Source: Zestomonas carbonaria (lineage in GTDB: Bacteria; Pseudomonadota; Gammaproteobacteria; Pseudomonadales; Pseudomonadaceae). From it: 64,000 nucleotides of DNA. The notes under the pieces are model-generated. The model saw only the letters and a program-made list of their open reading frames with translations, had not been told where the DNA came from and ran no database searches. The DNA lies in assembly GCF_904061905.1 (NCBI RefSeq), contig NZ_CAJFCI010000054.1, positions 62,001-126,000 of the forward strand, in the 5' to 3' direction. Positions 10,543 to 61,700 of the stretch are shown piece by piece; position 1 is the first letter of the stretch, and every line of letters starts with the position of its first letter. The position numbers and the translations under genes are program-made.

Positions 10543-10572
10543 TCACAACGTTTCCGTGCGGGAGCCCTGGCG

Positions 10573-10592: not shown

Positions 10593-10614
10593 AAAAGCGT
10601 CATGAGCGGCCCTC

Positions 10615-17185: not shown

Positions 17186-17201
17186 CCCGGCGCCGCCGGG
17201 C

Positions 17202-17217
17202 TGCAAATTTCTGACAG
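17202..17217 (+). promoter_or_regulatory. Shared 16-bp motif TGCAAATTTCTGACAG, copy 3
   Basis: Third copy of the motif, 58 nt before the acyl-CoA ligase start. One base differs from copy 2. A position this close to a gene suggests a promoter-proximal activator or sigma-factor site. Confidence 0.55.
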
Positions 17218-17275
17218 ATTCGCCGCGCGTTGGAGAAGAAGATGCGCGACCAAAAATAAGAAGGAGCCTATAGAC

Positions 17276-34210: not shown

Positions 34211-36520
34211 TCAGTGGCGATCCCTGAGCCTGAGGATCAGCAGGTTCGGATCGGCGTCTATCTGCTCGCGGGTGAACGGCAGCGTCTGCCATTCCTGGCG
34301 CGAGAACAGTTCCGTCTGGTCCTTGAAGTAGGGAGAGGCCGGCTCGCTGGACTGCGAGAACGCCAGCAGGCCCTTGGCCACAGGCCCCTTCTCGTCGAAG
34401 CTGACCAACTGGATGTAGCTGCTGCCGCCGACCACTTCCAGGCGGCCATCGGCATCCTGCCGGCTCTGGATGGCGTTGTAGATGCCCATGCGTCCATCGC
34501 CTCCGGGGATCGGAATCTGTACGTTGCCGCGCCTGGCGATCTGGATCTGTCCCCAGGTGGTCCGCTCCGGCCAGCGTGCCGCCTCGACCTCGCTCGCCGC
34601 CTTGCGCAACGCCCGTTCGAGCTGCCGGGCGACCTGCGGGTCCTGCCAGGCGATGCCGCGCGGGGTATGCAGCGGGTCCTGCGGGTCGAAGGGATGAAGC
34701 CAGACCGCGTCGAGTTTCGGGAGCGCCGCCACGAAACGCTGGAAGTACAGCAGCCCCAGGCCGCTATCCAGTTCCGCGCGCCGGTCCCAGGCCGCCAGCG
34801 CCGCGCAGCCGCCGGCCAGTTCTTGGTCCGTCGACCGGGAAGCGCAGAACGCCAGCAGGTCGTCCAGGACCAGATCGGCCAGGTACACCCGGTTGTCCGT
34901 CACCAGGCGGGTCAGGAAGTCCTCGCTGAACGGCTGCCCGTCGTGCGCGCCGAGCTGGGCCAGGGCGTAGCGGGCGCGCGCGCCCAGTGGCCGGCCTTCG
35001 CGGCTGACCAGCGGGGAGTAGCCGGTCAGCGGCGTGGCCGGGTTGCTCATCCAGGCGCTGTCGTTCGAGTTCTGCACGAAATCGCCGCGACGCAGCGCCG
35101 GCAGGCGTTTGCCGGCAACCACGCCAGGCTGCGCCGCCTCGGGATCGACTTGCCAGTCGCAATCGCCACGGCTGCCGTCCAGGCCGGGCAGCCCCTGGCC
35201 CAGCAATGCCTGGTCGGCGCACTCGCCCAGCCGCTCCAGCGGCACGTTGGGAACGAGCGAGGCGTTCATGTACAGGGCACTGCCCCGGTCGTCCACGGCC
35301 AGGGTGTTGACCCAGGGAATCCCCTGGATGTCCTGAATCGCCGCGCTGAAGGCGTCCAGGTCGCTGGCCTGGTTCATCGCCAGCCATTGCTGCAACACCC
35401 GCGTGTTGCCCAGGTTGACGTCTTGCAGGGCATAGGCGTGCTGCCGGTTCCAGTCGAGCATGCCGGGCCAGTTCAGCAGCGGGCCGAAGGTGGATTCGTA
35501 GATGTCGTGGCTCTGCTTCGACAGGCGCCCGTCCGGCTCGCGGACGTCGATGGACAGCGTGGTCTTGCGCAACGGCAGGCTGCGTCCGTCGACGAGGTAG
35601 CGCGTGGGGTCCTTGGGGTCCAGCGCCAGGCGGTGCAGGGTGAAGTGGCTCGACGTATCGACGGTGTGGGTCCAGGCCAGGTGCCGGTTGAAACCGATGT
35701 TCACCACCGGCAGGCCGGGCAGCGCGGCGCCCATCACGTCCAGCTTGCCGGGCAGGGTCAGGTGCATCTGGTAGAAACGCAGCCCGCCGGACCAGGGGAA
35801 GTGCGGGTTGGCCAGCAGGCGGCCCTTGCCGTTCTCGGTGCGCTCCCCGCCCACGGCGATGGCGTTGCTGCCGCGCTCCAGGGCGAAGCCGCGCAGGCGC
35901 TCCAGGCTCAGCGAGGTGACCGTGGTGGGCGTCGGCGCCGCAGCTTGCGGCGGGGCGGCGGCCAGCATGGCTTCGCTGAACTGCCCGATCCCGCCTTCGA
36001 CCAGCAGCCGGCGCACGAGCCGCGCCATGTCTTCCTCTTGCAGGGGACGCAGCCAGTCGGCATCGCGGCAGGCGACCGGGCGCTTCGTCGTGGCGACCTC
36101 GCCCAGGTAGTGGTTGAAGCCGGCCACGTAGCCGGACAGCAGTTGCCGGATGGCCGGCGGCTGGCTGTCCAGGAAACCGGCAACGGCCTCGTCAGCGTTC
36201 AGCCAGCGGAAGAAGAAGTCCGAGCGCACGTTGTCCAGGCCAGTCGAGGACTGCCCTTCCCGCCCCAGGAACCGGGCCCGCTCGCCCCGCACGGTCAGCA
36301 CTTCGTCGGCCAGCAGGCAGAGATTGTCCCGCGCATAGGCGTAACCGATGCCGTAGCCGAGGCCGTGCTCGTCGGCCGCCCGGATATGCGGTATGCCGAA
36401 GGAGGTCCAGCGGATCTCGGCCTTGTAGTCGGTCCGGACATCCCGTGCGCCGGCCGGCGACGCCATCATCATGGAACCTGTCGCCACCAGTGCGATGGCT
36501 GCGGAAAGAACCCTGTGCAC
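34211..36520 (-). CDS. pvdQ: Acyl-homoserine-lactone/siderophore acylase PvdQ
   Basis: A 769-aa Ntn-hydrolase of the penicillin-acylase family with signal peptide (HRVLSAAIALVATGSMMMASPAGA), so periplasmic. The self-processing site is ERGSNAIAVGG: Gly217-Ser218, with Ser218 as the N-terminal nucleophile of the beta chain. In Pseudomonas it removes the fatty-acid tail from the pyoverdine precursor, and it can also cleave long-chain acyl-homoserine lactones (known for the family). An exact IS box lies 63-86 nt before the ATG. It is 90 nt downstream of the FecI gene on the same strand but has its own promoter. Confidence 0.93.
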   Translation of the reverse strand: MHRVLSAAIALVATGSMMMASPAGARDVRTDYKAEIRWTSFGIPHIRAADEHGLGYGIGYAYARDNLCLLADEVLTVRGERARFLGREGQSSTGLDNVRSDFFFRWLNADEAVAGFLDSQPPAIRQLLSGYVAGFNHYLGEVATTKRPVACRDADWLRPLQEEDMARLVRRLLVEGGIGQFSEAMLAAAPPQAAAPTPTTVTSLSLERLRGFALERGSNAIAVGGERTENGKGRLLANPHFPWSGGLRFYQMHLTLPGKLDVMGAALPGLPVVNIGFNRHLAWTHTVDTSSHFTLHRLALDPKDPTRYLVDGRSLPLRKTTLSIDVREPDGRLSKQSHDIYESTFGPLLNWPGMLDWNRQHAYALQDVNLGNTRVLQQWLAMNQASDLDAFSAAIQDIQGIPWVNTLAVDDRGSALYMNASLVPNVPLERLGECADQALLGQGLPGLDGSRGDCDWQVDPEAAQPGVVAGKRLPALRRGDFVQNSNDSAWMSNPATPLTGYSPLVSREGRPLGARARYALAQLGAHDGQPFSEDFLTRLVTDNRVYLADLVLDDLLAFCASRSTDQELAGGCAALAAWDRRAELDSGLGLLYFQRFVAALPKLDAVWLHPFDPQDPLHTPRGIAWQDPQVARQLERALRKAASEVEAARWPERTTWGQIQIARRGNVQIPIPGGDGRMGIYNAIQSRQDADGRLEVVGGSSYIQLVSFDEKGPVAKGLLAFSQSSEPASPYFKDQTELFSRQEWQTLPFTREQIDADPNLLILRLRDRH

Positions 36521-38499: not shown

Positions 38500-40155
38500 A
38501 TGACCCCCAACGCAGAAAGCCTCGCCCACGAAACCCTGACCATCCTCAAGCCATTCTGGCCACAGGTCGTCCTCTCGGCATTCCTGGGAATAGCCGGTGG
38601 CCTCAGCGTCACCGCGCTGCTGGCCACCATCAACACCGCGATGAACGCCGAAGGCGGCCCCAGCACGCGCCTCGCCCTGCTGTTCGCCGGCCTGTGCGTC
38701 CTGACCCTGGCCTGCTCGACCCTGTCGAACCTGCTGACCAACTACGTCGGCCAGCGCGTGGTCGCCACCCTGCGCCGGGAACTGGCGGCCAGGATCCTCG
38801 CCGCGCCCATCGAGCAACTGGAACGCTACCGCGCCCACCGGCTGATCCCGGTGCTGCTCAACGACGTCGGCACCATCAGCACCTTCGCCCTGACCGTGGC
38901 GCCCATGGTGATCTCGTTCACCGTGACCATCGGCTGCCTGAGCTACCTGGCGCTGCTGTCCTGGCAGATCCTGCTGCTCACGGTGATCACGGTGATCGTC
39001 GGCAGCGGCGCGCAATACCTGGCGCATCGCTACGGCACCCGCAGCATCCAGGCCGCCCGCGACGGCGAGGACGAGTTGCAGAAGCACTACCAGGCCATTT
39101 CCGCCGGCGCCAAGGAGCTGCGCATCCAGCGCGAGCGCCGCCTGCACATGCTGGACCAGCAGATCCACGGCACCACCGAGCGCATCTGCCGCGCCAACAT
39201 CCGCGCCGCCGCCATCTTCGTCAGCGCCGAGACCTTCGGCTCGATGCTGTTCTTCGCGGTGATCGGCATGGCCATCGCCTTCCAGGCCTTCTGGCCCGCC
39301 ACCGACAGGACCGTACTGGGCGGCTTCGTGCTGGTCATGCTGTACATGAAGGGGCCGCTGGAGCAGTTGATCAACACCCTGCCCGGCCTCAGCCGCGCCG
39401 AGGTCGCCTTCCGCCGCATCGCCGAGCTGTCGTGGCGCTTCTCCTCATCGGAGCCGCACCTGCTGGCCGGCGACCGCCCGCTGCTGGAGGAGCCCCTGGC
39501 GCACATCGAGCTCCACCAGGTGCGCTACGACTACCCGCAGGCGGAGGGCAGCCAGGCGTTCCACCTGGGCCCCATCGACCTGACCATCCGGCAGGGCGAG
39601 ATCGTCTTCATCGTCGGCGAGAACGGCTGCGGCAAGACCACCCTGATCAAGCTGCTGCTGGGCCTCTACGCGCCCCAGCACGGCGAGATCCGCCTCAATG
39701 GCCAGGCCGTCCGGGCCGAGCAGCGCGACGACTACCGGCAACTGTTCACCACCGTGTTCGCCGACTACTACCTGTTCGACGAACTGCTCCAGGGGCACTC
39801 CGAACTGCCCGGCGAAGCCCTCAAGTACCTGGAGCGCCTGGACATCGCCCACAAGGTCGGCATCCGCGATGGCGCCTTCACCACCACCGACCTGTCCACC
39901 GGCCAGCGCAAGCGCCTGGCCCTGGTCAACGCCTGGCTGGACGACCGCCCGGTGCTGGTGTTCGACGAATGGGCCGCCGACCAGGACCCGACCTTCCGCC
40001 GCGTGTTCTACACCGAGTTGCTGCCCGAGCTGAAACAGCGCGGCAAGACCCTGATAGTCATCTCCCACGACGACCGCTACTTCGACATCGCCGACCAGTT
40101 GGTGCGCATGCGCGCCGGCCAGGTGGCGACCGAACGCGTGCCGCAGCCGGCTTGA
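38500..40155 (+). CDS. pvdE: Pyoverdine precursor exporter PvdE (ABC transporter)
   Basis: A 551-aa half-transporter: six transmembrane segments in about the first 300 residues, then an ATPase domain with Walker A GENGCGKT (373-380), signature LSTGQ (465-469) and Walker B LVFDE ending at Glu490. It belongs to the cyclic-peptide/siderophore exporter group. In Pseudomonas PvdE moves the acylated ferribactin precursor from cytoplasm to periplasm. Driven by its own IS box. The next gene is on the opposite strand. Confidence 0.93.
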   Translation: MTPNAESLAHETLTILKPFWPQVVLSAFLGIAGGLSVTALLATINTAMNAEGGPSTRLALLFAGLCVLTLACSTLSNLLTNYVGQRVVATLRRELAARILAAPIEQLERYRAHRLIPVLLNDVGTISTFALTVAPMVISFTVTIGCLSYLALLSWQILLLTVITVIVGSGAQYLAHRYGTRSIQAARDGEDELQKHYQAISAGAKELRIQRERRLHMLDQQIHGTTERICRANIRAAAIFVSAETFGSMLFFAVIGMAIAFQAFWPATDRTVLGGFVLVMLYMKGPLEQLINTLPGLSRAEVAFRRIAELSWRFSSSEPHLLAGDRPLLEEPLAHIELHQVRYDYPQAEGSQAFHLGPIDLTIRQGEIVFIVGENGCGKTTLIKLLLGLYAPQHGEIRLNGQAVRAEQRDDYRQLFTTVFADYYLFDELLQGHSELPGEALKYLERLDIAHKVGIRDGAFTTTDLSTGQRKRLALVNAWLDDRPVLVFDEWAADQDPTFRRVFYTELLPELKQRGKTLIVISHDDRYFDIADQLVRMRAGQVATERVPQPA

Positions 40156-40374: not shown

Positions 40375-41502
40375 TCACCAACCCCGCCCCGAATTGACCC
40401 AGAAGTTGACGGACAGCGAGGTCGAGACGGACTCGACCTGATGGAACCAGCCTTCCGGCAGGAACAGCAGGTCGCCCGCCTCCAGCACGATGCGCAGGAA
40501 GACCACCTCGCGCGCGCCGGGGAATCTGTCGTAGTCGGGTTTGTCGGGGTTCGCGTCGCAGCCTTCCAGGCCGCCCTGGGGCGAAGTGGACCAGGTCCCC
40601 AGCGCCTCGCGATGATGCGGCGCGGCCAGGATGAAGGACTTGCGCCCCCACACCTGGGCGAAGAGGTTGTCGGTATCGTCCCGGTGCAGGGGCGTCAGCG
40701 TGCCCTTGGGACCGATCCAGATACGCGGCTTGATGTACAGCGACGACTCGAAATAGTCGGGGAAGCGGATCAGCTCCAGCAGTTGGGCAGGCAGGACATT
40801 GTTGCCCATGTACGGCGGCGGGACGCCTTCCTCCACGTCCCGATCCAGGGCGGCGATGAACTCGGCCATCGAGGTGGAACGAAAATCCCGCTCGGTGGAG
40901 AAGGTCTTCTGGACGTAGTCGCCATGCCGGGTGATGCCCTGCAGCTCGGCGAAATGCACCAGCGACTCCTCGCGGCTCATGTTGAACAGCGGCCAGTCGC
41001 GCAGGGCGTCGCTGATGATCACCGGGAGCCCCTGCGGCAGGTAGTGCCGGCGGAACTCCTCCACCGACAGGCCGCCGCGCGGCCGGCGCTCCACTTCCAG
41101 CAGCGTTGCCTGGCGCGCCGAAAGCCGGTCGCTGGCCCGCTCCGGCGCGGGATAGCGCTGGTTCATGTCCCGCGCCTGCTTCGGCGGCGTGGCGCCCCGG
41201 CGAGCCGCATTGATGATCTGCGGCAACAGGGTGGCGAGCCCCATCTGCCCGCCGATCTTCAGCCGTCCGTTGGCGAACAGTTCCTCGACGTCCCGCGTCC
41301 CCTGGAGAATCCCGGCGAAGTCCTGTTCGTCGAGCTCGATGGTCACGTCGGCGGCCGGATGCCGTCCGGGCCGGATGGTCACCTGCTCGGCCACTTCCGA
41401 CCAGATCGTCTTTTCCGCGGAGAAGACGAACTGGAAGACCCCTCGGGCCCCCACCGTCTGCGCACCGGCGAACAAGTTGGACAACACAGCGGGTAAATCC
41501 AT
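40375..41502 (-). CDS. SCP2-like plus JmjC/cupin_8 protein, putative Fe(II)/2-oxoglutarate hydroxylase
   Basis: A 375-aa two-domain protein. The first ~100 residues resemble the SCP2 sterol-carrier fold (QFVFSAEKTIWSEVAEQVTIRPGRHPAADVTIELDEQDF). The rest is a JmjC/cupin_8 domain with the facial metal triad His273-x-Asp275 (PLHRDDTDN) and His354 (GWFHQVES). AGGAG lies 8 nt upstream of the ATG. Located between pvdE and pvdP on the pvdP strand, 235 nt downstream of the pvdP stop, with no IS box of its own. Context suggests hydroxylation of a siderophore residue, perhaps on the NRPS carrier; this is inference. Confidence 0.75.
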   Translation of the reverse strand: MDLPAVLSNLFAGAQTVGARGVFQFVFSAEKTIWSEVAEQVTIRPGRHPAADVTIELDEQDFAGILQGTRDVEELFANGRLKIGGQMGLATLLPQIINAARRGATPPKQARDMNQRYPAPERASDRLSARQATLLEVERRPRGGLSVEEFRRHYLPQGLPVIISDALRDWPLFNMSREESLVHFAELQGITRHGDYVQKTFSTERDFRSTSMAEFIAALDRDVEEGVPPPYMGNNVLPAQLLELIRFPDYFESSLYIKPRIWIGPKGTLTPLHRDDTDNLFAQVWGRKSFILAAPHHREALGTWSTSPQGGLEGCDANPDKPDYDRFPGAREVVFLRIVLEAGDLLFLPEGWFHQVESVSTSLSVNFWVNSGRGW

Positions 41503-41737: not shown

Positions 41738-43339
41738 TCAGGCGCGCGAGGCGCCCCGGGCAAGGTGTCGCCCGTACCACGGGCGACGCGGCACGCGTCC
41801 TTGCAGGCGCTCGGACTCATCCTCGCCGGTGAAGACGATGCCCAGCGCGAGCTTCATGGTCTCGATATCCAGCTCGCCGTCGTCGTCGCGGTTGCCACGC
41901 CCCCAGGCGCCGCAACCGGCCTGCGTCGGGCCCAGCCAGGGTTCGGCGACGCGCACCCAGTGGCCGGGAGCGAACCAGGGCACGCCGTCGACCTCCTTGC
42001 GCACCACCTGGCCGGGATGCGCCTGTTCGTGGGCCAGGAACCAGTCTTCGATGCGGTCGTCGATCCAGCCATGGAAGGACCAGAACACCGGGCTGACGTG
42101 GGAGGAAAACGGGTCGCCCAGGTAATCGTTGCCGGGGCGGAACCAGCGCTCGGAAAAGTCGGCGGAGCCCCGGCCATACGCAATCGGCAGGCCGCTGCCA
42201 GGGTCGAGCGGCACCGAGGCCCAGCGCATGTGCAGCCAGTCGTGGATGCCCAGTTCGATGCGCGATCCCAACTCGCCCAGGCACAAGGTGGCGAGGTACT
42301 CGGGGTCGCGGTACCGGGCTTCCCACGCCTGGAAATCGCCGTAATAGCCTTCGCCGCTCTTGATGTAGTACAGCCACTGGTTGAATTCGTCGTCGCCCTG
42401 GGATTCCCACGCCGGCGGCACGGAAAACCCGTCGCGGTTGGCCAGGTAGTCCGCGAACGCCTGCACCCCGTGGCCGATGAATGGCCGGGGCGGCGGCAGG
42501 CTCGGCCAGGAGGGCAGGTCCTGCATGGAGCGCGCGCGCATCAGCATGTGCCGGTGCATGAACAGGAAGTCCTCCCCGGAGCCGTTGCGGTGCCGCTGCC
42601 TGCCCCGCGCATCGCGCTCCTTGCCGAGAGGACCGGCCTGCCAGCCGAGCGCCCGCAGCGCCTGGCGTCGGTCGTCATCGAGCCGGTGCCAGCGATCGCG
42701 GCTGGCATGCCACAACTGGTGGAACAGGCGGTGCCCCGGCGAAGTCAGCCAGGCCGCCAGCTCCGGCACATAGGGCAGTCGTTCGCAGGCCGGCACGAAT
42801 GGCCGGCGGATGGCGACGAAGGTGACCTCCGGCGCCGACAGGCCTGCCTGGGTTCCCGACCGGCGCAAGCGGCCGCTCAGCGTTGCGTTGCCACCCGCAT
42901 TCCATACATCCCAGACCTCGTCGAAGATCGCCGAGCACTCCAGGGAGCGGCCAGCCCCGTCCACCATCTTCAGGCACAGGTTCGGTGCCTTGTCGCCGGC
43001 CAGTTGGCCAAAGACCTGGAACCCCTCGCCGGCAAAAGGCGGCGCGCCCAGGTAACCGCGCAATGCCCGGCCGCCGGGGCCGACGTCCAGCAGCAGTTGC
43101 AGCTCTCCCGCCGGGATTTCGGGGAAGTCCTGGCGTCCGGCGAGGAAGCGGACGTCCCACGCCCCGACCAGCCGGTTGGCCAGCAACGCGTTCTGCAATA
43201 CCGGGACAGGGGTGTCCGGCTCGTCGGACGACAGTTCGGCGGCCTCCGCCGCTTCCCATCTGCGATGGGCATAGATTCCCGCAGGCAGGGCTGCCGCCAC
43301 CGCCAACCCCGTTACGAACCCTCGCCGAGAAAACTTCAT
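41738..43339 (-). CDS. pvdP: Pyoverdine maturation tyrosinase PvdP
   Basis: A 533-aa protein with a Tat signal (SRRGFVTGLAVAAALPAG, twin Arg) that sends the folded enzyme to the periplasm. The C-terminal half is tyrosinase-like: copper-ligand His are plausible in RLFHQLWHASRDRWHRL, FLFMHRHMLM, ELGIHDWLHMRW and FWSFHGWIDDR. In Pseudomonas PvdP oxidises the D-Tyr/Dab ring precursor of ferribactin to form the dihydroxyquinoline chromophore. An exact IS box lies 34-57 nt upstream. It is divergent from pvdM. Confidence 0.92.
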   Translation of the reverse strand: MKFSRRGFVTGLAVAAALPAGIYAHRRWEAAEAAELSSDEPDTPVPVLQNALLANRLVGAWDVRFLAGRQDFPEIPAGELQLLLDVGPGGRALRGYLGAPPFAGEGFQVFGQLAGDKAPNLCLKMVDGAGRSLECSAIFDEVWDVWNAGGNATLSGRLRRSGTQAGLSAPEVTFVAIRRPFVPACERLPYVPELAAWLTSPGHRLFHQLWHASRDRWHRLDDDRRQALRALGWQAGPLGKERDARGRQRHRNGSGEDFLFMHRHMLMRARSMQDLPSWPSLPPPRPFIGHGVQAFADYLANRDGFSVPPAWESQGDDEFNQWLYYIKSGEGYYGDFQAWEARYRDPEYLATLCLGELGSRIELGIHDWLHMRWASVPLDPGSGLPIAYGRGSADFSERWFRPGNDYLGDPFSSHVSPVFWSFHGWIDDRIEDWFLAHEQAHPGQVVRKEVDGVPWFAPGHWVRVAEPWLGPTQAGCGAWGRGNRDDDGELDIETMKLALGIVFTGEDESERLQGRVPRRPWYGRHLARGASRA

Positions 43340-43372: not shown

Positions 43373-43396
43373 ACGAACGCCGGGGCGCCGAATTTA
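43373..43396 (-). promoter_or_regulatory. IS box TAAAT-N16-CGT (PvdS promoter) for pvdP
   Basis: Minus-strand TAAAT (43396-43392) and CGT (43375-43373), 16 nt apart, 33 nt from the pvdP start codon. Short leader, consistent with a transcript start close to the gene. Confidence 0.85.
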
Positions 43397-43839: not shown

Positions 43840-45177
43840 ATGAGCACTCGTCGCGTCGCCTGGAAATGGCTACTCCTGAGCATCCTGTCATTGGCCGCCG
43901 TAGCGGCAATCGCCTTGCTGATCTGGTGGTTGTTCATTCGCCTGGCCTCTCCCTACCCGCCAGACGTCATGCGCCGGGCCAACGATCTGCAGGAGCGAAT
44001 TCTCTCCTTCGACGCCCATATCGATATCTCGCCCCGCTTCGGCAGCGAAGGCCGGGAGGCCGACCGGGACGGCCCCACGCAATTCGACCTGGTCAAGGCC
44101 GAGCGCGGCCGCCTGAGCGGCGCGGCGCTCACCATCTGGGCCTGGCCGGAGTTCTGGACCGGCGCCAACGGACCGCACCGGCCGACGCCGGGCTTCGTCG
44201 AAGCCGCGCGGCACGAGCAGGAAGCCCGCTACCGGATCATCACCGGCATCGCCAGGGACTACCCGGAGCGCGCCGGCATCGCCTACACCCCGGCCGACTT
44301 CCGCCGCCTGGCCCACGAAGGCAAGTTCGCCATCGTCATCAGCATGCTCAACGCCTACCCGCTGGGCGACGACGTATCGCGCCTGGACGACTGGGCCGCG
44401 CGCGGCATGCGCATCTTCGGCTTCAGCTACGTGGGCAACAACGCCTGGGCGGATTCATCCCGTCCCATGCCCTTCTTCGGCGATTCGCCCGACGAGCATG
44501 GCGGTCTCTCCGAGTTGGGCCGGCAGGCCGTGGAGCGCCTGAACGACCTGGGGGTGGTCATCGACGTTTCGCAGATGTCGAGCACCGCCCTCGAGCAGGT
44601 CGCCGAACTGACCCGCGCCCCGATCATCGCCTCGCACTCGGGCGTGCGCGGGCTGGTGGACCTGCAACGCAACCTCACCGACCGGGAACTGCGCCTGGTC
44701 CAGAAGACCGGCGGCGTGGTCCACATCGTCGGCTTCTCCTCCTACCTGCGCGCCTTCTCGAAGGACACCCTCGCCAAGGTCAACGCCATGCGCGCCGGCT
44801 TCGGCCTGCCGGACGTGACGAACCTGTCCCAGGCCAGCATGCCGGCCGACCCGGCGTTCTCGATCTGGCCGGAGAAGAAGTTCGGCGAGTACGCCCGCCA
44901 GCTCTACTCCATCCTCGAAACCGATCCCCGGGCGGGCCTGAAGGAGTTCGGCGATGCCATCGACTACGCGGTGAAGAAGATCGGCATCGACCATGTCGGC
45001 ATCAGTTCCGACTTCAACGACGGCGGCGGCCTGATCGACTGGGAGAACGTCGGCGACACCCGCAACGTCACCGCCGAACTCATCCAGCGTGGCTATTCGG
45101 ACGCGGACATCGCCAAGTTGTGGGGCGGCAATTTCCTGAGGGTATGGGAAGAATCACAACGCTTGGCAAAACCATGA
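43840..45177 (+). CDS. pvdM: Periplasmic dipeptidase-like protein PvdM
   Basis: A 445-aa M19 (renal dipeptidase) family protein anchored by an N-terminal membrane helix (LLLSILSLAAVAAIALLIWWLF). Metal residues include SFDAHIDI near the start, IVISMLNAY, PIIASHSGVRG and IGISSDFNDGG-like ISSDFND. In Pseudomonas PvdM is needed for the PvdP tyrosinase step, though its exact reaction is not settled. GGGAG lies 7 nt before the ATG. First gene of a four-gene set that ends with pvdF. Confidence 0.9.
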   Translation: MSTRRVAWKWLLLSILSLAAVAAIALLIWWLFIRLASPYPPDVMRRANDLQERILSFDAHIDISPRFGSEGREADRDGPTQFDLVKAERGRLSGAALTIWAWPEFWTGANGPHRPTPGFVEAARHEQEARYRIITGIARDYPERAGIAYTPADFRRLAHEGKFAIVISMLNAYPLGDDVSRLDDWAARGMRIFGFSYVGNNAWADSSRPMPFFGDSPDEHGGLSELGRQAVERLNDLGVVIDVSQMSSTALEQVAELTRAPIIASHSGVRGLVDLQRNLTDRELRLVQKTGGVVHIVGFSSYLRAFSKDTLAKVNAMRAGFGLPDVTNLSQASMPADPAFSIWPEKKFGEYARQLYSILETDPRAGLKEFGDAIDYAVKKIGIDHVGISSDFNDGGGLIDWENVGDTRNVTAELIQRGYSDADIAKLWGGNFLRVWEESQRLAKP

Positions 45178-45274
45178 TCCCGCAGTCCGTCTCCGGAGCA
45201 GGGGCAGGTTCTCCAGTACGAGCCGGACCGGAAATGCAGGCGCCTTGGCACCATTCAATCGAGGGTTGAGCAGG

Positions 45275-46135
45275 ATGCAATACGTGAACTATCTCTTCAG
45301 CGTTCTGGCCTGTCTTTGTCTTGCCTCCACGCTCCACGCGGCGGAGCCTCCATCGACGGCGGGAGAAGTTTTCAAAGACTGCGAAACATGCCCTGAAATG
45401 GTCGTATTGCCATCCGGAAGTTTCGTCATGGGCTCGCCGGCGATGGAGCCGGGAAGACACTCCGACGAAGGCCCTCTGCGCAAGGTTACCTTCGCTCGAC
45501 CATTCGCCATCAGTCGTTTCTACGTCACCGCCGGGGAATGGGATGTCTATGCGAAGGAAACAGGCATCACGCTCGAGAACGGCGACACCCGCCCCGGGCG
45601 CGAATGCATCAATGGCAAGCCACGCTACCCCCAGGGCCCACGCCAGCCAGCAGTATGCGTGGACTACGAGGATGTCCGCGCCTACATCTCATGGCTGGCT
45701 GAAAAGACGGGCAAACCCTATCGGATGATCAGTGAGGCCGAACGGGAATATGCCGCCAGGGCCGGCAGCGAAGGGCGTTTTCCTTTCGATGACAAGAACA
45801 GCTTCGACCTCACGAAACATGCAAACACACTGGGCGCGGCGGATGGTTATGAATACACCTCCCCCGTGGACAGTTTCCCGCCAAACGACTTTGGCGTTTA
45901 CGACATGCACGGCAACGTCTACGAGTGGGTCGCCGACTGCTGGCATCCCAACTATGTCGGCGCGCCAACGGATGGTAGCGCGTGGATGGAAGAAGACTGC
46001 AAGGCACACCACATCCGAGGCAACGACTGGCTATCCCAATCCATTTTCTCCAGATCGGCCAACCGTAACGTCCGCAAACCCGACGTCCGGGGAGATTGGA
46101 TCGGCTTCAGGGTCGCCAGGGATCTGGAGCAATGA
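45275..46135 (+). CDS. PvdO-like SUMF1/FGE-fold protein, paralogue 1
   Basis: A 286-aa exported protein: signal peptide MQYVNYLFSVLACLCLASTLHA, then the SUMF1 fold (EMVVLPSGSFVMGSP, MISEAEREYAARAGSEG, GNVYEWVADCWHPNY). It is clearly related to the next gene along its whole length. The FGE active-site CxxxxC is missing (RGNDWLSQSIFSRSANRN instead), so it cannot be a formylglycine-generating enzyme. Its base composition is less GC-rich than its neighbour's. It occupies the position that pvdN holds in the usual pvdM-pvdN-pvdO order. Function unknown; ferribactin maturation is likely from context. Confidence 0.8.
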   Translation: MQYVNYLFSVLACLCLASTLHAAEPPSTAGEVFKDCETCPEMVVLPSGSFVMGSPAMEPGRHSDEGPLRKVTFARPFAISRFYVTAGEWDVYAKETGITLENGDTRPGRECINGKPRYPQGPRQPAVCVDYEDVRAYISWLAEKTGKPYRMISEAEREYAARAGSEGRFPFDDKNSFDLTKHANTLGAADGYEYTSPVDSFPPNDFGVYDMHGNVYEWVADCWHPNYVGAPTDGSAWMEEDCKAHHIRGNDWLSQSIFSRSANRNVRKPDVRGDWIGFRVARDLEQ

Positions 46136-46260
46136 GTAGCCCGGAATACCAGCGCCACCCTGCTCGACGAGAGTGACAACAGGCCTCTTGCCGCCACAGA
46201 AACTCCCCCGACAAACCTCCTCGATGTGCTCCTACATCCCATCTTGAATTGGAATACCAG

Positions 46261-47124
46261 ATGCGCCACATCATTGCTTGTGCCCAAGGCTCCTTACTGA
46301 CACTCCTGGTCATGGCCAACGCCCATGCCGCCGAAACTCTCCAGCCCGGCACCGTCTTCAAGGATTGCCCGGAATGCCCGGAGATGGTGGTACTGCCCGC
46401 CGGCAGCTTCATCATGGGCACCCCGGACGACGAACTGGGCAAGCAGCCGGACGAAGGCCCGCAGCACGAGGTGACCTTCGCCAGGCCTTTCGCGATCAGC
46501 CGCTTCCAGGTCACGGCGGAAGAACTCGATGCCTATATCGAGCAGACCGGCGTGGTCATCAAGAGCGGCGACGAACGCCCCGGGCGCTGGTGCGAGGCGA
46601 GCAAACCCAGCTATCCGCAAGGCCCCCGCCAACCGGCGGTGTGCATCGACTACCACGAAGTCCAGGCCTACGCCGCGTGGCTGTCGAAGAAGACCGGCGA
46701 GCGCTACCGGATGATCAGCGAAGCGGAACGCGAATACGCCGCCCGCGCCGGCTCCACGGGGCCCTTCCCGTTTCCCTTCGACGAAGAAGGGGACTACCAG
46801 ATCAGCAAGCACGCCAACACCTACGGCCCCAAGGACGGCTACAGCTACAGCTCGCCGGTCGGCAGCTACCCGCCCAATGCCTTCGGCGTCTACGACATGC
46901 ACGGCAACGTCTACGAATGGGTCGCCGACTGCTGGCATCCCAACTACGTCGGCGCGCCCACCGACGGCAGCGCCTGGATAGACGACGAGAACTGCGAACG
47001 GGCCCACATGCGTGGCAACGACTGGGGCGAGGCGCCGGTCTTCTCCCGTTCGGGCAACCGCAACGACCGCCTGAAAACCACTCGCGGGGACTTCCTGGGC
47101 TTCAGGGTGGCGCGGGAGCTTTGA
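46261..47124 (+). CDS. pvdO: Pyoverdine maturation protein PvdO
   Basis: A 287-aa periplasmic SUMF1-fold protein with signal peptide (CAQGSLLTLLVMANAHAA). It shares VTFARPFAISRF, RMISEAEREYAARAGS and YDMHGNVYEWVADCWHPNYVGAPTDGSAW with paralogue 1. Like known PvdO it lacks the FGE active-site Cys pair. In Pseudomonas PvdO completes chromophore oxidation of dihydropyoverdine. The ATG at 46261 is preferred to a TTG 12 nt earlier. It lies 49 nt before pvdF, the usual PvdO-PvdF order, which is why this copy is called pvdO. Confidence 0.85.
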   Translation: MRHIIACAQGSLLTLLVMANAHAAETLQPGTVFKDCPECPEMVVLPAGSFIMGTPDDELGKQPDEGPQHEVTFARPFAISRFQVTAEELDAYIEQTGVVIKSGDERPGRWCEASKPSYPQGPRQPAVCIDYHEVQAYAAWLSKKTGERYRMISEAEREYAARAGSTGPFPFPFDEEGDYQISKHANTYGPKDGYSYSSPVGSYPPNAFGVYDMHGNVYEWVADCWHPNYVGAPTDGSAWIDDENCERAHMRGNDWGEAPVFSRSGNRNDRLKTTRGDFLGFRVAREL

Positions 47125-52716: not shown

Positions 52717-55700
52717 TCAGCTCACCACACCCACGGCTTCACTCAAGAAGCGCTCCTCATGCAGGATCGAGTAGTGGTCAGCCACGCAGAACGACTCGAA
52801 GCCTCCCTCGAACGATAGCCCCCTGGAGAACTCGAGGGCGTCTGCCTCACGACCCTCGACCCACCAAGCATGCGGCCTGCAAACCAGGCCTGAAAGGTCC
52901 GAGCCTTCCCAGCGCAGCCTGCCGAGGGTTACGAACGCCCCGAACACCTGAACCAGTTCCTCCCCTGTCAGCCCGAAGCGCAGCTCTTTCCCCCTGGCGG
53001 CTTCGCGAATGCCATCTGCGGCACTTTCGAGCACGCTTCCCTCCATGGCGGAAAGCACCGCCGGGCCCACCTCCGAGTCGGCCAGGAAGATGCGCAGGAA
53101 CTCGCTCAGCACATGCCGTGGGTCCAGATCGTCGAACGCTCGCCCATCCTTCATGGGAGCATCGACCATTCCCAGGAAGGTGACTTCCTGCCCCTGCGAC
53201 TCCAGCTCCCTGGCCACGAACAGGCTGATCACCGCACCCAGTGACCATCCCATGAGGCTATAGGGCCCCTCGGGCTGCATGAGGCGTATCGACTGGGCAT
53301 AGTCCCTGGCCAGTTCTCGCATCGAGAGCGCTGGGCAACCGGGCTCGGTCAGCATGCGGGACTGTATGCCGATCACCGCACGCTTCCCGTCGAGTCGTCG
53401 TGCCAGAGACAGATAGTCGAAGACCGTGCCGAATACGCCATGGATGCAGAAAAGCGGCTGGGCATGGTCGATACGGGCGTTCAACGGCACCAGGGCATTG
53501 GAGCCCAGGTCCACGGTTCCAGTCAGTTCCGCGATGGTCGGTTTGTGCATGAGGTCACGCAGGGTGATCGACAGTCCCCGATCTCTTAGCCGCTTGGCCT
53601 TTTCAACCAACCCGACGGCCAGGATCGAGTCGCCGCCCAACTCGAAGAAGTTATCGGTCAAACCCACCCGCTCCAGCTTCAGCACGTCCGCCCAGATGGC
53701 CGCCAGTTCCCGCTCCAGCGCCGTGCGTGGCGCCACACAGGCATCGCGTATCTCGCTCGTGTTCGGCGGCGGCAGGGCCTTGCGATCGATCTTTCCATTC
53801 GGCGTCAGTGGCAGGCGCTCCAGCAACAGGAGATGCGCCGGCACCATGTACTCCGGCAGGCTCGTCTTCAGGGTCGCTCTCAATAGCTCGCGCAATGCCG
53901 CACGCCCTTCCGGCGCGACCAGCACATCCGCCTCCGCTGGCACCACGTAGCCCACCAGTTGCTTGCCGCCCGGCCCGTCCTGGGCCAGCACCACGCCTTC
54001 CCGCACGGCCTCATGCTCCAGCAGCCGCGCCTCGATCTCGCCCAGTTCGATGCGGAAACCGCGAATCTTCACCTGGTGATCCATGCGCCCGAGATACTCG
54101 ATCGCCCCCTCGGGCCGGTACCGCACCAGATCGCCCGTGCGGTACAGGCGTCCTCCGCCATGCTCGTCGAACGGGTCGGGAACGAAGCGTTCCGCAGTCA
54201 ACGCAGGGCGGTTGTAATACCCCCTGGCAAGGCCGTGCCCACCAATGAACAGTTCGCCGCCAATCCCCGTGGAGACGATATTGGCGCTTCCATCCAGGAC
54301 ATACAGGGCCGTGTTCGACAGGGGCTGTCCAAGCCAGATCGAGCCGGCATCCTCGACTTGCTGGCTCGATGACCAGATGGTGGTTTCAGTCGGTCCGTAG
54401 AGGTTCCAAAGAGCCCCGACATGCTCGAGCATCCTGCCTGCCAGGTCCTTGGCCAGCGCTTCGCCGCCGCAGAGCGCTTTGCGCCCGCGCAGCCTTCCGA
54501 CGGTTTCCGGAGCGCCATCCAGCAGCATGCGCCATGTCGCCGGCGTCGCCTGGATGACATCGATGTCGCTCTCCTCGATCAACGCCAGCAGCGCCTGGGG
54601 GTCCTTGCCGACCGGCCCCTTGGGCAGCACCACGCACGCGCCGCACAGCAGGCTCAGGTAGAGCTCCAGCCCGGCAATATCGAAGGACAGGGAAGTGAGT
54701 TGCAGCACCCTGTTCCCGTGCTCCAGCCCCAGTTGCTCTCTCATGCTGCACAGGAAGTTCACCAACGACCGGTGCTGGATGAGCACTCCCTTCGGCCTGC
54801 CGGTCGAACCCGAGGTGTAGATCACGTAGGCCAGATTCTCCGGGGCCGCGCGATGCTCCAGGTTCCTTGCCTCGTACTCCTGGCAGTCGCCCTCCCGATC
54901 CAGGCACAGGCTCCGTACCGCCTCTCCCGACGGGAGGGAATCCAGCAGGTGGGACTGGCTCAGAACCAGCCTCACGCCACTGTCCTCCAGCATGTACGCC
55001 AGGCGCTCGCGCGGATACTCCGGGTCCAGCGGCACGTACGCACCACCTGCCTTCAGCACCGCCAGCAGCCCCACGACCATCTCCAGGCCGCGCTCGACCG
55101 CAATGCCCACCAGCACATCCGGCCCCACGCCCAGCTCGCGCAGTTTGCGCGCCAGCCTGTTGGCCCGCTGGTTGAGCTCCCGGTAGGTCAGCGCCCGGTC
55201 AGCGAAGATCAATGCGCTGGCCTCCGGCGTCTTCTCCGCCTGGGCCTCGATCAGTTGATGGAGGCACGACTCGCCCGGATAGATATCCCCGGAGCTGTTC
55301 CAGGCATCGACAACCTGCTGGCGCTCCTCGCTGCCCAGCAACGGAAGATCGCCGATACGTGCCCCGCCATCGGCGGCCAAAGCCTGCAACAAGTTGCCGA
55401 AGTGGCCGGCCAGTTGGCTGACCGTACGAGCGTCGAAATGCCCGTGGTCGTAGCCGTAATGCACCGTCAGGGTCTCGCCCAATCCAACGGCCAGCGTCAA
55501 CGGGTAGTTGGTCTGCTCCTGGTTGCCCACCTCGCCGAAACTCAGGCCGGCCGGCGTTCCCTGGCGCAACGCCTCCGACACCGGGTAGTTCTCGAACACC
55601 ACCAGGCTGTCGAACAGCGCCTCGCCGCCCAGGCCGGCCCAGCGCTGCACCTCGTACAGCGGCGTGTGCTCGAACTCGCGTGAGGCCAGGTTCCGCTCCT

Positions 55701-58700
55701 GCACCTGACCGATCCACTCGGCCACCGTCTGCTCCGGACGCGGACTGCCGATCACCGGCAGGGTGTTGATGAACAGCCCCACCTGCTCCTCGATACCGGC
55801 CAGTTCCGCCGGGCGCCCTGCCACCGTGGCGCCGAAGCACACCGTCTCCTGGCCGGTGTAGCGCTGCAACAACAGCAGCCAGGCGGCCTGGACCAGGGTG
55901 TTCACCGTCACCCGATGCGCACGGGCGAACTCACCGAGACGACGCGTGTGCTCCCGGTCGAATCTCTGGCGGTGGTTCCCGTGGCCTGCCTGCAAACCCG
56001 GCTGGTTCAGCCTGACGGCCTGGGCCAACCGCGTCGGCTCGTCGAGCTCGGCCAACTGCCCTTTCCAGAAGATCTCGCCAGCGGCCTGGTCCTGCCGTTG
56101 CAACCAGGCGATGTAGTCGCGATAGCGTCCTGGCCGTTGATCCGGAACCTGCCCGGCATAGCGCTGCAACACGTCGCCCAGCAGCCGGGAGTTGCTCCAG
56201 CCATCCATCAGGATGTGGTGGTTGGTGTAGATCAGGTGATGTCGATTCCCGGCGACCCTCACCATGACCAAGCGCAGCAATGGCGCGCGGGTCAGGTCGA
56301 AGCCCTGCCGCCGTTCCCCCTCGGCCAGGGCGTCCAGCGCTCGTTGCAGCTCGGGCTGGCCACGCCAGTCATGCTCGATGAAGGGCAGCGCTACATGCTT
56401 GTGCACGATCTGGATCGGCTGCTCCAGTTCGCCTTGCCAGACGAACCCCGTGCGCAGGATGTCATGCGCCTCCAGGGCTGCCTGCCAGACCTGGCGGAAC
56501 CGCTCGACATCCAGCCCATCCACGTCCACCCGCATCTGGTTGATGTAGTCGCCCCCCTCCTGCTCGTAGAGGCTGTGGAACAGCATGCCCTGCTGCATCG
56601 GCGACAGCGGGTAGATATCGGCGATCTGCGCCGCCGGGGTCGGCAGGCCGTCCAGTTGCGCCTGGCTCAACCCGGCCAGCGGGAAGTCCGATGGCGTCAC
56701 GCCACGGCTCTCTTCCCGGCAGCAATGCTCGATCAGCGCCTTGAGCTCCTCGGCATAGTCGTCGGCCAAGCGCAGGATCGTCCGCTCGTCGAACAGCTCC
56801 CGGCTGAAGGTCCAGCCCAGGCTCAACTCACCGTCGTATACCTGCCCGTTGAGGCTGATCGATGCGCTCAGCGGCGCGTCTTCGCTCAGGGACGAACCAC
56901 TCTGTTCGGATGCCGGAATGAACAGTCCGTCCTCGCCATCGAAACTGCCATCGAACTGCCCCAGGTAGTTGAAGACGATTTCCCCCTGCGGCAGTTGTTG
57001 AAGCGCTTGCCGAGCTTCGGGAGTACCCAGGTAACGCAACAGGCCATAACCGATGCCCTTGTTCGGCACCGCCCGCAACTGCTCCTTGATCGTCTTGATC
57101 GAGGCCGCCGGTTCGTCCTGCGGGCTCAGCTTCACCGGGTACACCGTGGTGAACCAACCCACCGTGCGGGTCAGGTCGATGTCCTCGAACAGATCTTCGC
57201 GGCCATGCCCCTCCAGCCGGACCAGCACGTCCGGCTGCCCGGTCCAGCGACCGATCACCCGCGCCAGGGCCGCCAGCAGCAGGTCGTTGACCTGGGTGCG
57301 ATAGGCGGCCGGCGCCTCCTGCAACAGCCGGCGCGTCCAGTCGCGGTCCAGGCGGGTGTTCGCGTATGCCGCCTGTTTCTGCTGGTTGCCGCCCTCCGGG
57401 TGATCGCAGGGCAGCTCACCGGCGACGCCTTGCAACTGTGCTTGCCAGTAGGCCAACTCCCCTTCGAGCACAGGGCTGGTGGCATGGGCTTGCAGATGCT
57501 CGGCCCAGGCCTTGAACGAGCTGGTCTTGGCCGGCAGCCCGAGCGACTGATAGGCCCGTTGCAGGTCCTCCAGCAGCACGCGCCAGGACACGCCGTCCAC
57601 CACCAGGTGGTGGATCACCAGCAACAGGCGTTGACCGCCGTCGGGCAATTCCGCCAGCACCGCACGCAACAGCGGACCGTTTTCCAGACTCAGGCTGCGC
57701 TGCGCTTCGTTGGCGACCTGCTCCAGCTCCGCCAGGTCGGTGAGGCAACTGGTCCACAGCACATCCATCGGTGCCACGCTCTGGAACTCGGCCTGCCATT
57801 CGCCATCTCGACGCTCGAAGCACGACCGCAAGGCATCGTGATGCTCAAGCACCGACAGTAGCGCGGCCTTCAGGCAGTCAGCCTCCAGCGGTTTGCGAGG
57901 AGCGAGCAATACCGACTGGTTCCAATGATGACGCTCGGGAATCTCCGCTTCGAAGAACCATTGCTGGATCGGTGTCAGCGGCAACACTCCGGTAACCGGT
58001 CCCTGATCGATGACCGGGCCTGCCGAGCGGCGAGCCACCGCCGCCAGCCCCTGCACCGTCTGGTGCTGGAACAGGTCCTTGGGCGTGAACTGGATGCCCG
58101 CCTGGCGTGCCCGGCTCACCACCTGCAACGAGATGATCGAATCGCCGCCCAGTTCGAAGAAGTTGTCGGCCAGCCCCACTCGCTCGATCTTCAACACCTC
58201 CGCCCAGATCGCCGCGACCTGCTGTTCCAGTTCCGTCCTCGGTGCCACGTAGGTCTGTTGCATCTGGTTCGCATCCGGCTGCGGCAGCGCCTTGCGGTCC
58301 AGCTTGCCGTTCGGGGTCAGTGGCAGGCGGTCCAGGAACAGCAGGTGCGCCGGGACCATGTAGTCCGGCAGGTGTGCCTTGAGCGCAGCCCTCAGGGTTT
58401 CGCGCAAGCCATCCTGTCCGGGCTGCGCCGGCACCACATAGCCCACCAGTTGCTTGCCGCTCGGCCCGTCCTGGGCCAGCACCACCGCCTCGCGCACGGC
58501 CGCCTGCTCCAGCAGCCGCGCCTCGATCTCGCCCAGCTCGATGCGGAAGCCACGAACCTTCACCTGGTGGTCGACCCGGCCCAGGTAATCCACCAGGCCA
58601 TCGGCCCGCGCACGGGTCAGGTCGCCGCTGCGGTAGACCCGCTCGCCGTCGCTGCCGAACGGATCGGGCACGAAGCGTTCCGCCGTCAGGCCGGGACGGT

Positions 58701-61700
58701 CCAGATAACCCCGCGCCACGCCTTCCCCGCCCAGGTACAGTTCGCCGGCAAGGCCCACCGGCAGCAGGTTCAGGTCGGCATCCAGCACATAGCCGCGCCG
58801 CTTGCCCAGCAAGGTGCCGATCGGTGCATAGGCCGCACCGCAGGCGTCACCCGGCCGAGCCTTCCACAGCAACGGCGTCACCACCGTTTCGGTCGGGCCG
58901 TAGCCGTTGAACAGGTATTGCGGACGCAGCGCTCGCCAGGCCAGGTCATAGCTCGCCTGCGGCACCGCATCGCCGCCGAAGCAGTAGACCCGCACCGGCG
59001 GCGGGTTGCCGTCGCGCTCGGCATGCTCGGCCAGTTGTTGCAGGTATACCGGCGGGAACACCCCCAACGTCACGCCGTGCCGATGCATCTCGGCGTAGGT
59101 CTGCTCCGGCAGCCACAGGCTGTCGTCGCGGATCAGTACGCGGGCGCCGTTGATCAGCGGGTGCATCCAGCCTTCATGGGCACCATCGAAGGCGAACGAC
59201 ATGAAGTGCAGTTCGCAGTCCGCCGGGTTCGTCTCGTAGCGCTCGCCGGTCGCCCGGATGTGCGACACCAGCGGGCCGTGGGACACCGCCACGCCCTTGG
59301 GCTGCCCGGTGGAACCCGAGGTGTAGATCACGTAGGCCAGGTTCTCTTCCGCCAACTCCACGCAAGGCGCGGTTTCCGGGTAATCGCGCCAGTCGTCGGA
59401 CTGGTCCACCGCCAGGGTCGGCAGGTCTGCGGGGATCGGCAACTGCTCCAGCACGTCGCCCTGGGTCAGTACCAGCGCGGCGGCGCAGTCCTTCATCATG
59501 TACAGCAGGCGGTCCTGCGGATAGGCCACGTCCAGCGGCACGTAGGCGCCACCAGCCTTCAGCACGGCCAGGAAGGCCACCATGATCTCCGCCGAGCGAC
59601 GCATGGCGATCGCCACCCGCACTTCCGGGCCCACGCCCAGTTCGATCAGCCGGTGGGCCAGGCGGTTGGCCTGGGCATCGAGCTGGCCATAGGTGAGCTG
59701 CTGGTCGCCGAAGATCACTGCCACCGCAGCCGGTGTTTGCCGGGCACGGTCCTCGATCAACTGGTGGACGTAGCGGTCGCTCGGGTAGTCGGACCGGGTC
59801 TGGTCCCACTGGGCCAGGATGAAGCGGCGTTCCGATTCGCCCAGCATCGGCAGCTCGGCAACCCGCCGCTCCGGCTGCGCGCAGATCGCTTCCAGCAGAT
59901 TGCCGAAATGCCTGGCCAACTGGCCAATCACCCGGGCATCGAAGTACCGGCAGTCGTAGCTGTAGTGCACCGTCAGGGTCTCGCCCAGCACAACCGCCAG
60001 CGTCAGCGGGTAGTTGGTCTGCTCCTGGCTGCCTACCTCGCCGAAACTCAGGCCGGCCGGAGCGCCCTGTTGCAGGGCTTCCGACACCGGGTAGTTCTCG
60101 AACACCACTAGGCTGTCGAACAGCGCCTCGCCACCCAGGCCAGCCCAGCGCTGCACCTCGTACAGCGGCGTGTGCTCGAACTCGCGCAAGGCCAGGTTCC
60201 GTTCCTGTACCTGGCCGATCCACTCGGCCACCGTCTGCTCCGGACGCGGCGTGCCGATCACCGGCAGGGTGTTGATGAACAGCCCCACCTGCTCTTCGAT
60301 ACCGACCAGCTCAGCCGGGCGCCCCGCCACCGTGGCGCCGAAGGTGACCGTCTCCTGGCCGGTGTAGCGTTGCAGCAGCAACAGCCAGGCGGCCTGGACC
60401 AGGGTGTTCACCGTTACCCGATGCGCCCGGGCGAACTCACCAAGACGACGCGCGTGTTCCCGGTCGAATACCTGGCGATGATCGCCATGGCCAACCTGCT
60501 CTTCCGACAGGTTCGGCCTGACGGCCTGGACCAGTCGCGTCGGCTCGTCGAGCTCGGCCAACTGCCCTTTCCAGAAGGTCTCGCTGACAGCCGGGTCCTG
60601 CCGTTGCAACCAGGCGATGTAGTCGCGATAGCGCCCGGCCTGCCGCCCCGGAACCTGCCCGGCATAGCGCTGCAACACTTCGCCCAGCAACCGGGAGTTG
60701 CTCCAGCCATCCATCAGGATGTGGTGGTTGGTGTAGATCAGGTGATGGCGCCGCTCCGCCGTGCGGACCAGCGTCAGCCGCAGCAGCGGTTCGCCGGCCA
60801 GGTCGAAGCCTTTCTGCCGGTCCGCCTGCGCCCACGTGGCCAGGCTCTCCTCCAGATCGGCCTGGCCTCGCCAGTCCAGCACCTCGAAAGGGATTGGCAC
60901 ATGCCGGCGAACCACCTGCAACGGCTGCGCCAGGCCGCTGACGAAGTTGGCCCTGAGTACTTCATGGCCATCGACCGTCGCCTGCCAGGCCTGACGGAAT
61001 CGTTCAACGTCCAGCCCGTCCACATCCACCCGCATCTGGTTGATGTAGTCGCCACCCTCCTGCTCGTAGAGGCTGTGGAACAGCATGCCCTGCTGCATCG
61101 GCGACAGCGGATAGATATCGGCGATCTGTGTTGCAGGAATCGGCAGGTTGTCCAGTTGTGCCTGGCTCAACCCGGCCAGCGGGAAGTCCGAAGGCGTCAC
61201 GCCACCGACCTCCTCCCGGCAGCAGTGCTCGATCAGCGCCTTGAGTTCCTCGGCATAGTCGTCGGCCAAGCGCAGGATCGTCCGCTCGTCGAACAGCTCC
61301 CGGCTGAAGGTCCAGCCCAGGCTCAACTCACCGTCGTATACCTGCCCGTTGAGGCTGAGCAGGCTGCCCAGCGGCGCCTCAGCGCTCTGCCCCGCGCCAC
61401 TGCCCTCCTTCGCCGGCACGAACAAAGCGGTTTCGTCGTCGAAGCTGCCATCGAACTGTCCCAGGTAGTTGAAGACGATCTCACCCTGCGGCAGTTGTTG
61501 AAGCGCTTGCCGAGCCTCGGGAGTACCCAGGTAACGCAGCAGGCCATAGCCGATCCCTTTGTTCGGCACCGCCCGCAGTTGCTCCTTGATCGTCTTGATC
61601 GATGCCGACAAATCCGTCTGCGGGCTGAGCTTCACCGGATACATGCTGGTGAACCAGCCCACCGTGCGGGTCAGGTCGATGTCCTCGAACAGGTCCTCGC

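Follow-up and report, generated by a model that had tools for sequence, protein, structure and literature searches.

Several described systems come close to parts of the protein reported here. The hydroxylases of the JMJD5 (KDM8) group, together with FIH, JMJD7 and TYW5, share one fold, an HxD...H metal triad and a conserved lysine for 2-oxoglutarate (2OG). The SCP2 family, with UbiJ and UbiT of ubiquinone synthesis among its members, offers the functional parallel of a lipid-binding SCP2 domain at the service of hydroxylation steps, UbiJ being an accessory factor of the ubiquinone hydroxylations. In pyoverdine loci, putative 2OG hydroxylases are represented by the Asp and His beta-hydroxylases of the SyrP/TauD type, and the side chain at the first glutamate (Glu1) is tailored by PvdN and PtaA. 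In a stretch of 64,000 nucleotides from Zestomonas carbonaria (NCBI RefSeq assembly GCF_904061905.1, contig NZ_CAJFCI010000054.1, positions 62,001 to 126,000; hereafter the window), we analyzed an intact open reading frame (ORF) of 375 amino acids, located at 40375-41502 on the minus strand, which fuses an SCP2 domain to a JmjC domain and belongs to the pyoverdine machinery. Its product differs from the JMJD5 group (approx. 28% identity) in being bacterial, SCP2-fused and part of a siderophore pathway, from UbiJ and UbiT in that SCP2 is joined directly to the hydroxylase, and from the SyrP/TauD type in that it is a Cupin_8/JmjC protein without a TauD match and without a link to Asp or His modules. 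The residue proposed as its target, Glu1, is that of PvdN and PtaA, but these are periplasmic enzymes dependent on pyridoxal phosphate (PLP), as described in part of PMC6206403, whereas the fusion protein is a candidate cytosolic oxygenase.

The same review of 2018 (Ringel and Brueser) states, in the part dealing with side chains, that nothing is known of how the malamide and malate forms are made, posits a hydroxylating enzyme and lists these forms as absent from PAO1 and A506 (PMC6206403). The corresponding part of a 2022 review still calls their biosynthesis unknown (PMC9569983), and the position of the hydroxyl group is left unresolved in passages of one review and one method paper. The fusion gene is a candidate for the enzyme that the reviews could not name. 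No paper naming the gene in a pyoverdine context was found in a search with most subscription journals outside its reach, and neither PMC11366639 (cupin, hydroxylase, dioxygenase) nor PMC12971057 (cupin, JmjC) mentions the terms looked for.

The SCP2-JmjC fusion gene belongs to the pyoverdine machinery

The gene starts with an ATG at 41502, preceded by GGAG, and is present as a single copy in the genome of the window. Residues 20-96 (41215-41445, minus strand) match the SCP2 (sterol/lipid carrier) model PF02036 with 33.0 bits (cut-off 21.3) and residues 149-368 (40399-41058, minus strand) match Pfam Cupin_8 with 126 bits (cut-off 27.4); both models were matched by all 39 aligned homologs. The Pfam model JmjC_2 additionally recognized residues 253-366 (29.2 bits, cut-off 22), while the classic JmjC model stayed slightly under its threshold (21.6 vs. 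24), TauD was not among the Pfam matches at an E-value of 0.1, and the UbiT equivalog model of NCBIfam scored only 17 bits against a threshold of 46.9. The metal ligands are H273 and D275 of the HxD motif (40678-40686) and H354 (40441-40443), which are invariant in 39/39 homologs, as is K288, aligned to the lysine of the JMJD5 GRK motif. An earlier sequence-only reading had taken the protein for a JmjC-type putative hydroxylase with exactly this triad, fused to an SCP2-like domain, and both proposals were borne out by family searches and structure prediction, in which the N-terminal part adopted the SCP2 fold and the C-terminal part resembled JMJD5.

Among solved structures, the sequence of the catalytic part came closest to JMJD5 (E-value of 2.6e-22) and that of the first part, weakly, to SCP2 proteins (best E-value 0.00025). 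An AlphaFold2 model built on the 39 homologs reached a mean per-residue confidence (pLDDT) of 79 and a predicted template modeling score (pTM) of 0.67, with pLDDT values below 50 at residues 104-114 and 188-210; due to these segments and the pTM, the mutual arrangement of the two domains is not fixed by the model. The predicted JmjC part was superimposed on JMJD5 with a Z-score of 24.1 and a root mean square deviation of 2.3 over 221 residues. Modeled alone, the SCP2 part (pLDDT 85.6) matched solved SCP2 folds with a fold-search probability of 1.00, among them human SCP2-like domains, a fatty-acid-bound mosquito SCP2 (1pz4), alkylsulfatases and UbiJ. Averaged over the alignment columns, the most frequent residue accounts for a share of 0.87 in the JmjC part and 0.78 in SCP2; the value falls to 0.68 in the linker and reaches 0.96 in the poorly modeled stretch 188-212. 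These values suggest an enzyme under strong selection with a loop which may become ordered upon substrate binding. No signal sequence was visible in the protein (highest 19-residue hydropathy near the start 0.99). Taken together, these data support a putative Fe(II)/2OG hydroxylase joined to an SCP2 domain.

Relatives were collected by scanning a species-genome collection, and the best 80 of 100 close relatives were kept; 79 are labeled Pseudomonas and one Pantoea, with 65-81% identity. Among 398 sampled Pseudomonadaceae genomes, the full-length fusion protein was present in 38, including that of the window (G291, with a distant match to the JmjC part only, was left out). PvdP, the pyoverdine maturation tyrosinase, was present in 141 of the 398, a set that includes every one of the 38 carriers and 103 genomes without the fusion gene; none of the 257 PvdP-negative genomes carries it (Fisher p = 1.9e-19, kinship not corrected). 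The named carriers tested were likewise PvdP-positive (16/16). The tie to pyoverdine postulated in the sequence-only reading, against which equal occurrence in genomes without siderophore clusters would have spoken, thus stands. Outside the family, no full-length relative was found in 369 genomes spread over the class, of which nine matched at an E-value of 1e-12, namely the window's own and eight within the JmjC part only; of 44 matching plasmid records, none spanned 80% of the fusion protein.

A pvd gene, defined by 40% identity to a query or as a nonribosomal peptide synthetase (NRPS) with a readable adenylation (A) domain, was found in the fetched flank of 74/80 named loci. The other six (L020, L047, L072, L076, L078, L079) all come from genomes with PvdP. 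In locus L020, an NRPS is matched weakly and a siderophore-reductase-like gene lies at least eight genes off, and L047 measures only 6.6 kb. The position of the gene varies. In the window and in L002 it is flanked by pvdE and pvdP, in L003 and L075 by pvdM and pvdP, and many fluorescens-type genomes have it next to pvdG, at the border of the peptide NRPS. In putida types it adjoins the first NRPS gene or has a lipase-like gene on one side and pvdH on the other (pvd names other than the profile matches pvdE, pvdP, pvdQ and pvdO are presumed from similarity and general knowledge). That the link persists through lineage-specific rearrangement speaks for a role in the pyoverdine pathway.

For the PvdS (iron-starvation) box, TAAAT-N16-CGT is given as consensus in part of PMC4019867. 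A perfect box was located at most 300 bp upstream, mostly at approx. 60 bp, in 71/81 copies of the fusion gene, including those of L072, L076, L078 and L079, compared to 54/840 of the remaining genes called in these loci, pvd genes among them (Fisher p = 4e-60, the copies not being independent). Five copies have a box with one mismatch (L003, L020, L066, L068, L075), L074 has only a box with a mismatch and a 15-base spacer, and L005 has none. The other three copies (window, L002, L081) have a perfect box ahead of pvdP, which runs toward the fusion gene in the same direction. In the window, pvdP (41738-43339, minus strand; NF051454, 698 bits, cut-off 625) lies upstream of the fusion gene with a gap of 235 bp, and the box at 43373-43396 (minus strand) is the probable promoter element of both genes, which would then share a transcript. 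Judged by its promoters, the fusion gene appears to be a member of the PvdS regulon.

Remnants of the gene (approximately residues 1-16, 80-149 and 346-375) persist in genome G889 within 250 bp between pvdG and pvdP (contig C72, approx. 45.28-45.53 kb; L240 5280-5532), preceded by a perfect PvdS box. In-place loss is therefore one reason for the patchy distribution. In 18 non-carrier panel loci, a search for relics gave only two weak matches (E-values of 0.21 and 0.22). In L081 (Pseudomonas sp. KNUC1026), the match to the fusion gene at 10001-11127 is not divisible by three and contains 12 in-frame stops, and pvdQ at 15559-17836 is split across frames; both point to either decay or assembly errors.

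Glu1 side chain as candidate target

Since the fusion gene does not track the peptide type (see the A-domain codes below), its target is probably a feature common to all pyoverdines and not a given peptide residue. In the acylated precursor, acyl-ferribactin, the acyl chain is attached to the alpha-nitrogen of Glu1. This residue is described as gamma-linked and common to all pyoverdines in a passage of PMC6206403, and as the bearer of the fatty acyl chain in one of PMC12195549.

Published side chains were compared with gene content, all of them taken from parts of the papers cited. Among the carriers, P. fulva NBRC 16637 (L010) has a PvdN of 65% identity, and SyrP was not found in it at an E-value of 1e-10. 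Its listed masses include 1204.56 and 1220.55, 15.99 apart, and in the sister strain NBRC 16639 the mass 1220.56 is assigned by tandem mass spectrometry (MS/MS) to a malic-type Asp-Ser-Ser-AcOHOrn-Lys-Lys-cOHOrn, where OHOrn is hydroxyornithine (PMC12195549). In this structure, the side-chain hydroxyl is the sole C-hydroxyl without an assignable known enzyme. P. putida NBRC 14671, also a carrier (L060), shows mass pairs 16.00 and 16.01 apart in the same paper. A malic acid amide is reported for the GB-1 pyoverdine and a mix of amide and acid for CFML 90-51 (PMC4019867); one genome with the GB-1 peptide carries the fusion gene. The carrier G312, with codes for Asp-Lys-Asp-Ser-Ala-Ser-hydroxyOrn plus SyrP, corresponds to the type of NBRC 12996, for which a 16.00 mass pair is listed (PMC12195549). 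Among non-carriers, four genomes (G132, G240, G310, G311) read Ser-Lys-Gly-hydroxyOrn-Lys-hydroxyOrn-Ser. ATCC 13525 and WCS374 fit this type by fragment masses (peptide formula in PMC8888394), and the side chains reported for them are succinic, ketoglutaric and, in ATCC 13525, succinamide (PMC3496975). Two genomes of the P. syringae type (G362, G370) lack the gene as well, and the two masses reported for strain MB03, 1123.41 and 1142.42, are not 16 apart (PMC7139650). In total, four carrier cases with malic forms and two non-carrier types without them agree, and two carrier types are ambiguous or contrary; as four versus two types give a Fisher value of 1/15 by hand, no statistical claim is made. 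P. fulva NBRC 16637 and P. putida NBRC 14671 are strain-matched, the remaining cases matched by peptide type. The carriers G356 and G361, whose readings differ in one residue from the peptide of the strain NBRC 15366 with its +16 pairs, were not counted, and WCS358 (L061, carrier) was not used, as a side-chain statement was not found in the available part of PMC4509608. From these few strains, we infer malamide or malate as the best candidate product.

The best current reading, which we consider about evenly poised between right and wrong, is that the fusion protein is the missing malamide hydroxylase, acting on Glu1 of acyl-ferribactin. It would be a cytoplasmic Fe(II)/2OG hydroxylase tailoring the common part of pyoverdine and not the strain-specific peptide; cytosolic action is proposed because no signal sequence is visible and 2OG should be needed. 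The C3 (beta carbon) of the N-terminal, gamma-linked Glu1 would be hydroxylated before PvdE exports the molecule, the substrate being either acyl-ferribactin or the acyl-Glu chain bound to PvdL. SCP2 would hold the fatty acyl chain on the alpha-nitrogen of Glu1, bringing the next carbon to the JmjC iron. After removal of the chain by PvdQ, PvdN would turn 3-hydroxyglutamate into malamide, which hydrolyses to malate; as the decarboxylation by PvdN would keep the nitrogen, the hydroxyl group would adjoin the amide of malamide. Substrate, timing and the role of SCP2 are what we infer here, and SCP2 as holder of the acylated precursor, an idea already present in the sequence-only reading, is plausible. 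In its most specific form, in which the acyl chain of ferribactin is a recognition handle gripped by the tethered SCP2 while JmjC hydroxylates Glu to yield malamide, malate or, where PvdN is missing, a 3-hydroxyglutamyl pyoverdine not yet described, the proposal is tentative and has perhaps one chance in its favor for two against it.

For the window lineage, the proposed route would end differently. PvdN was not found at an E-value of 1e-10 in the carriers G000, G056, G770, G771 and G772 of this lineage, although PvdP is present (G043 is apparently the same genome as G770), and G000 gave a single match to PvdN, a PLP enzyme of 29% identity in which no signal sequence is visible. There, the route would stop at a 3-hydroxyglutamyl side chain. 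As this lineage keeps the fusion gene without a PvdN having been found, the succinamide made by PvdN is an unlikely substrate, and the side chain of the lineage is probably not succinamide.

Several points weigh against a Glu1 hydroxylase leading to malamide. With PvdN seemingly missing from the window lineage, malamide would be impossible there by the PvdN route. The 2018 review, in its part on the side chain, prefers succinamide as substrate because a hydroxyglutamate intermediate was never seen (PMC6206403), and hydroxyglutamyl forms are without a published report. Gene and mass data come from the same strain in two cases only, NBRC 16637 and NBRC 14671, and neither is the strain assigned by MS/MS. 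Pairs differing by 16 occur in 11/13 strains of the mass table (all but NBRC 100650, which is KT2440, and NBRC 16636) and thus discriminate little. P. brassicacearum CCUG 51508, presumably identical to the type strain DSM 13227, is a carrier. Its m/z of 1134.41, given in a passage of PMC12971057, fits either side chain: malamide if residues 1 and 6 are both Ala, succinamide if one of them is Ser; in the genome, residue 1 is Ala and residue 6 falls outside the assembly. Furthermore, the carrier G185 encodes a Pf-5-like peptide, Asp-FoOHOrn-Lys-Thr-Ala-Ala-FoOHOrn-Lys, which in strain 3G07 is described with succinic and succinamide forms, the two that the group sought according to parts of PMC8888394 and PMC9925543.

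If the Glu1 proposal is true, the hydroxylation step shifts from the periplasm to the cytosol and the hydroxyl group is placed on the carbon beside the amide, and the fusion gene could act as a genome marker for the side-chain type. If the idea about SCP2 holds too, this would be an unusual substrate presentation in nonribosomal peptide tailoring.

Peptide codes and other conceivable targets

A-domain codes in pvd loci were read with a method based on hidden Markov models for 25 genomes with the fusion gene and 18 without it. The peptide NRPS was missing from the stretch in G285, G293, G304, G312, G325, G353 and G356; five of these were completed by adding further sequence, the exceptions being G304 and G353. 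With code-to-residue assignments that we take from general knowledge, the readings reproduce the published peptides of the ATCC 13525 and GB-1 types. The sequence-only reading had seen in the fusion protein a stand-in for the TauD/SyrP type, i.e., a second, non-TauD hydroxylase acting on carrier-bound Asp, His or Orn as iron ligand, and had looked to co-occurrence with the respective modules. Amino acid side chains are targets of JmjC hydroxylases, and an Asp module (DLTKIGHVG) is present in the window genome, in which a SyrP homolog was not found at an E-value of 1e-5. However, the fusion gene does not follow module content, and the stand-in role was not upheld. Four carrier loci (G137, G253, G344, G365) have no Asp module, with neither an Asp nor a His code in the stretches read, a pattern at odds with a hydroxylase of the SyrP/TauD type, and four carriers (G056, G305, G327, G345) have a separate SyrP gene. 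The set Lys / Asp-Ala / Thr-Ala-hydroxyOrn plus SyrP even occurs both with (G305, G327, G345) and without (G299, G315) the fusion gene. Based on the module content of the carrier loci, a general role as Asp/OHAsp hydroxylase was rejected; a tie to a particular hydroxyornithine code was rejected as well, since the codes are common to carriers and non-carriers. Two hydroxyornithine codes are already present in several carriers, including the window genome. Moreover, the Asp of P. brassicacearum could be served by a separate SyrP-like domain, which occupies residues 638-947 of a 973-aa frame and is joined to part of an NRPS next to the Asp module (G767, contig C9, approx. 273.8-276.7 kb; L231 17770 into L232), and NBRC 16637 is a carrier while the published P. 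fulva peptide, in the part of PMC12195549 describing it, has no hydroxylated Asp. We regard an Asp, His or Orn target as improbable.

Equally little speaks for two further targets. The enzyme might hydroxylate the fatty acyl chain of acyl-ferribactin while SCP2 has it in its pocket, thereby marking the molecule for export or deacylation, which would agree with the fatty-acid- and alkyl-binding relatives of the SCP2 fold and with pvdQ, pvdE and pvdP near the gene in the window; but its closest JmjC relatives (JMJD5, TYW5, JMJD7, FIH) are not known to act on fatty acids, PvdQ removes the chain anyway, and most PvdP-positive genomes (103/141) do without the fusion gene, making this target unlikely. 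JMJD5, JMJD7 and FIH hydroxylate proteins, so that an NRPS, a regulator or a ribosomal protein could be modified under iron starvation, with which the PvdS boxes are consistent. This leaves the SCP2 fusion unexplained, and the confinement to PvdP-positive genomes favors a pathway substrate; a protein target has, in our estimate, little chance of being correct. The least likely option, by a little, is hydroxylation of the succinamide side chain after PvdN, as supposed in the text of the 2018 review; PvdN is described there as periplasmic (parts of PMC6206403), whereas the fusion protein shows no signal sequence and should need 2OG, and the five carriers without a found PvdN add to this.

Neighboring genes in the window

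The placement of the gene between pvdE and pvdP, as given in the sequence-only reading, is correct: a pvdE-type cyclic peptide exporter gene (38500-40155, plus strand; TIGR01194, 699 bits) lies on one side and pvdP on the other. The gene of the acylase PvdQ, which removes the fatty acyl chain, is at 34211-36520 (minus strand; NF051460, 1139 bits). A membrane dipeptidase gene at 43840-45177 (plus strand; PF01244) is of the pvdM type, a name we presume from its position and general knowledge. pvdO follows at 46249-47124 (plus strand; NF051459, 536 bits, cut-off 500) and forms a tandem of PvdO-like (FGE-sulfatase) genes with the ORF at 45245-46135, whose score is just below the PvdO cut-off (474 vs. 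500). The peptide NRPS (52717-63966, minus strand) runs beyond the window; the part inside has three A domains, with codes for Ala, hydroxyOrn and Gly, and a thioesterase. Together with an Asp-hydroxyOrn NRPS upstream of it, the predicted peptide of this genome is Asp-hydroxyOrn-Ala-hydroxyOrn-Gly. Finally, many pyoverdine loci have a gene of approx. 320 amino acids, lipase-like by eye only, that adjoins the peptide NRPS or fpvA, e.g., at 10688-11650 in L093.
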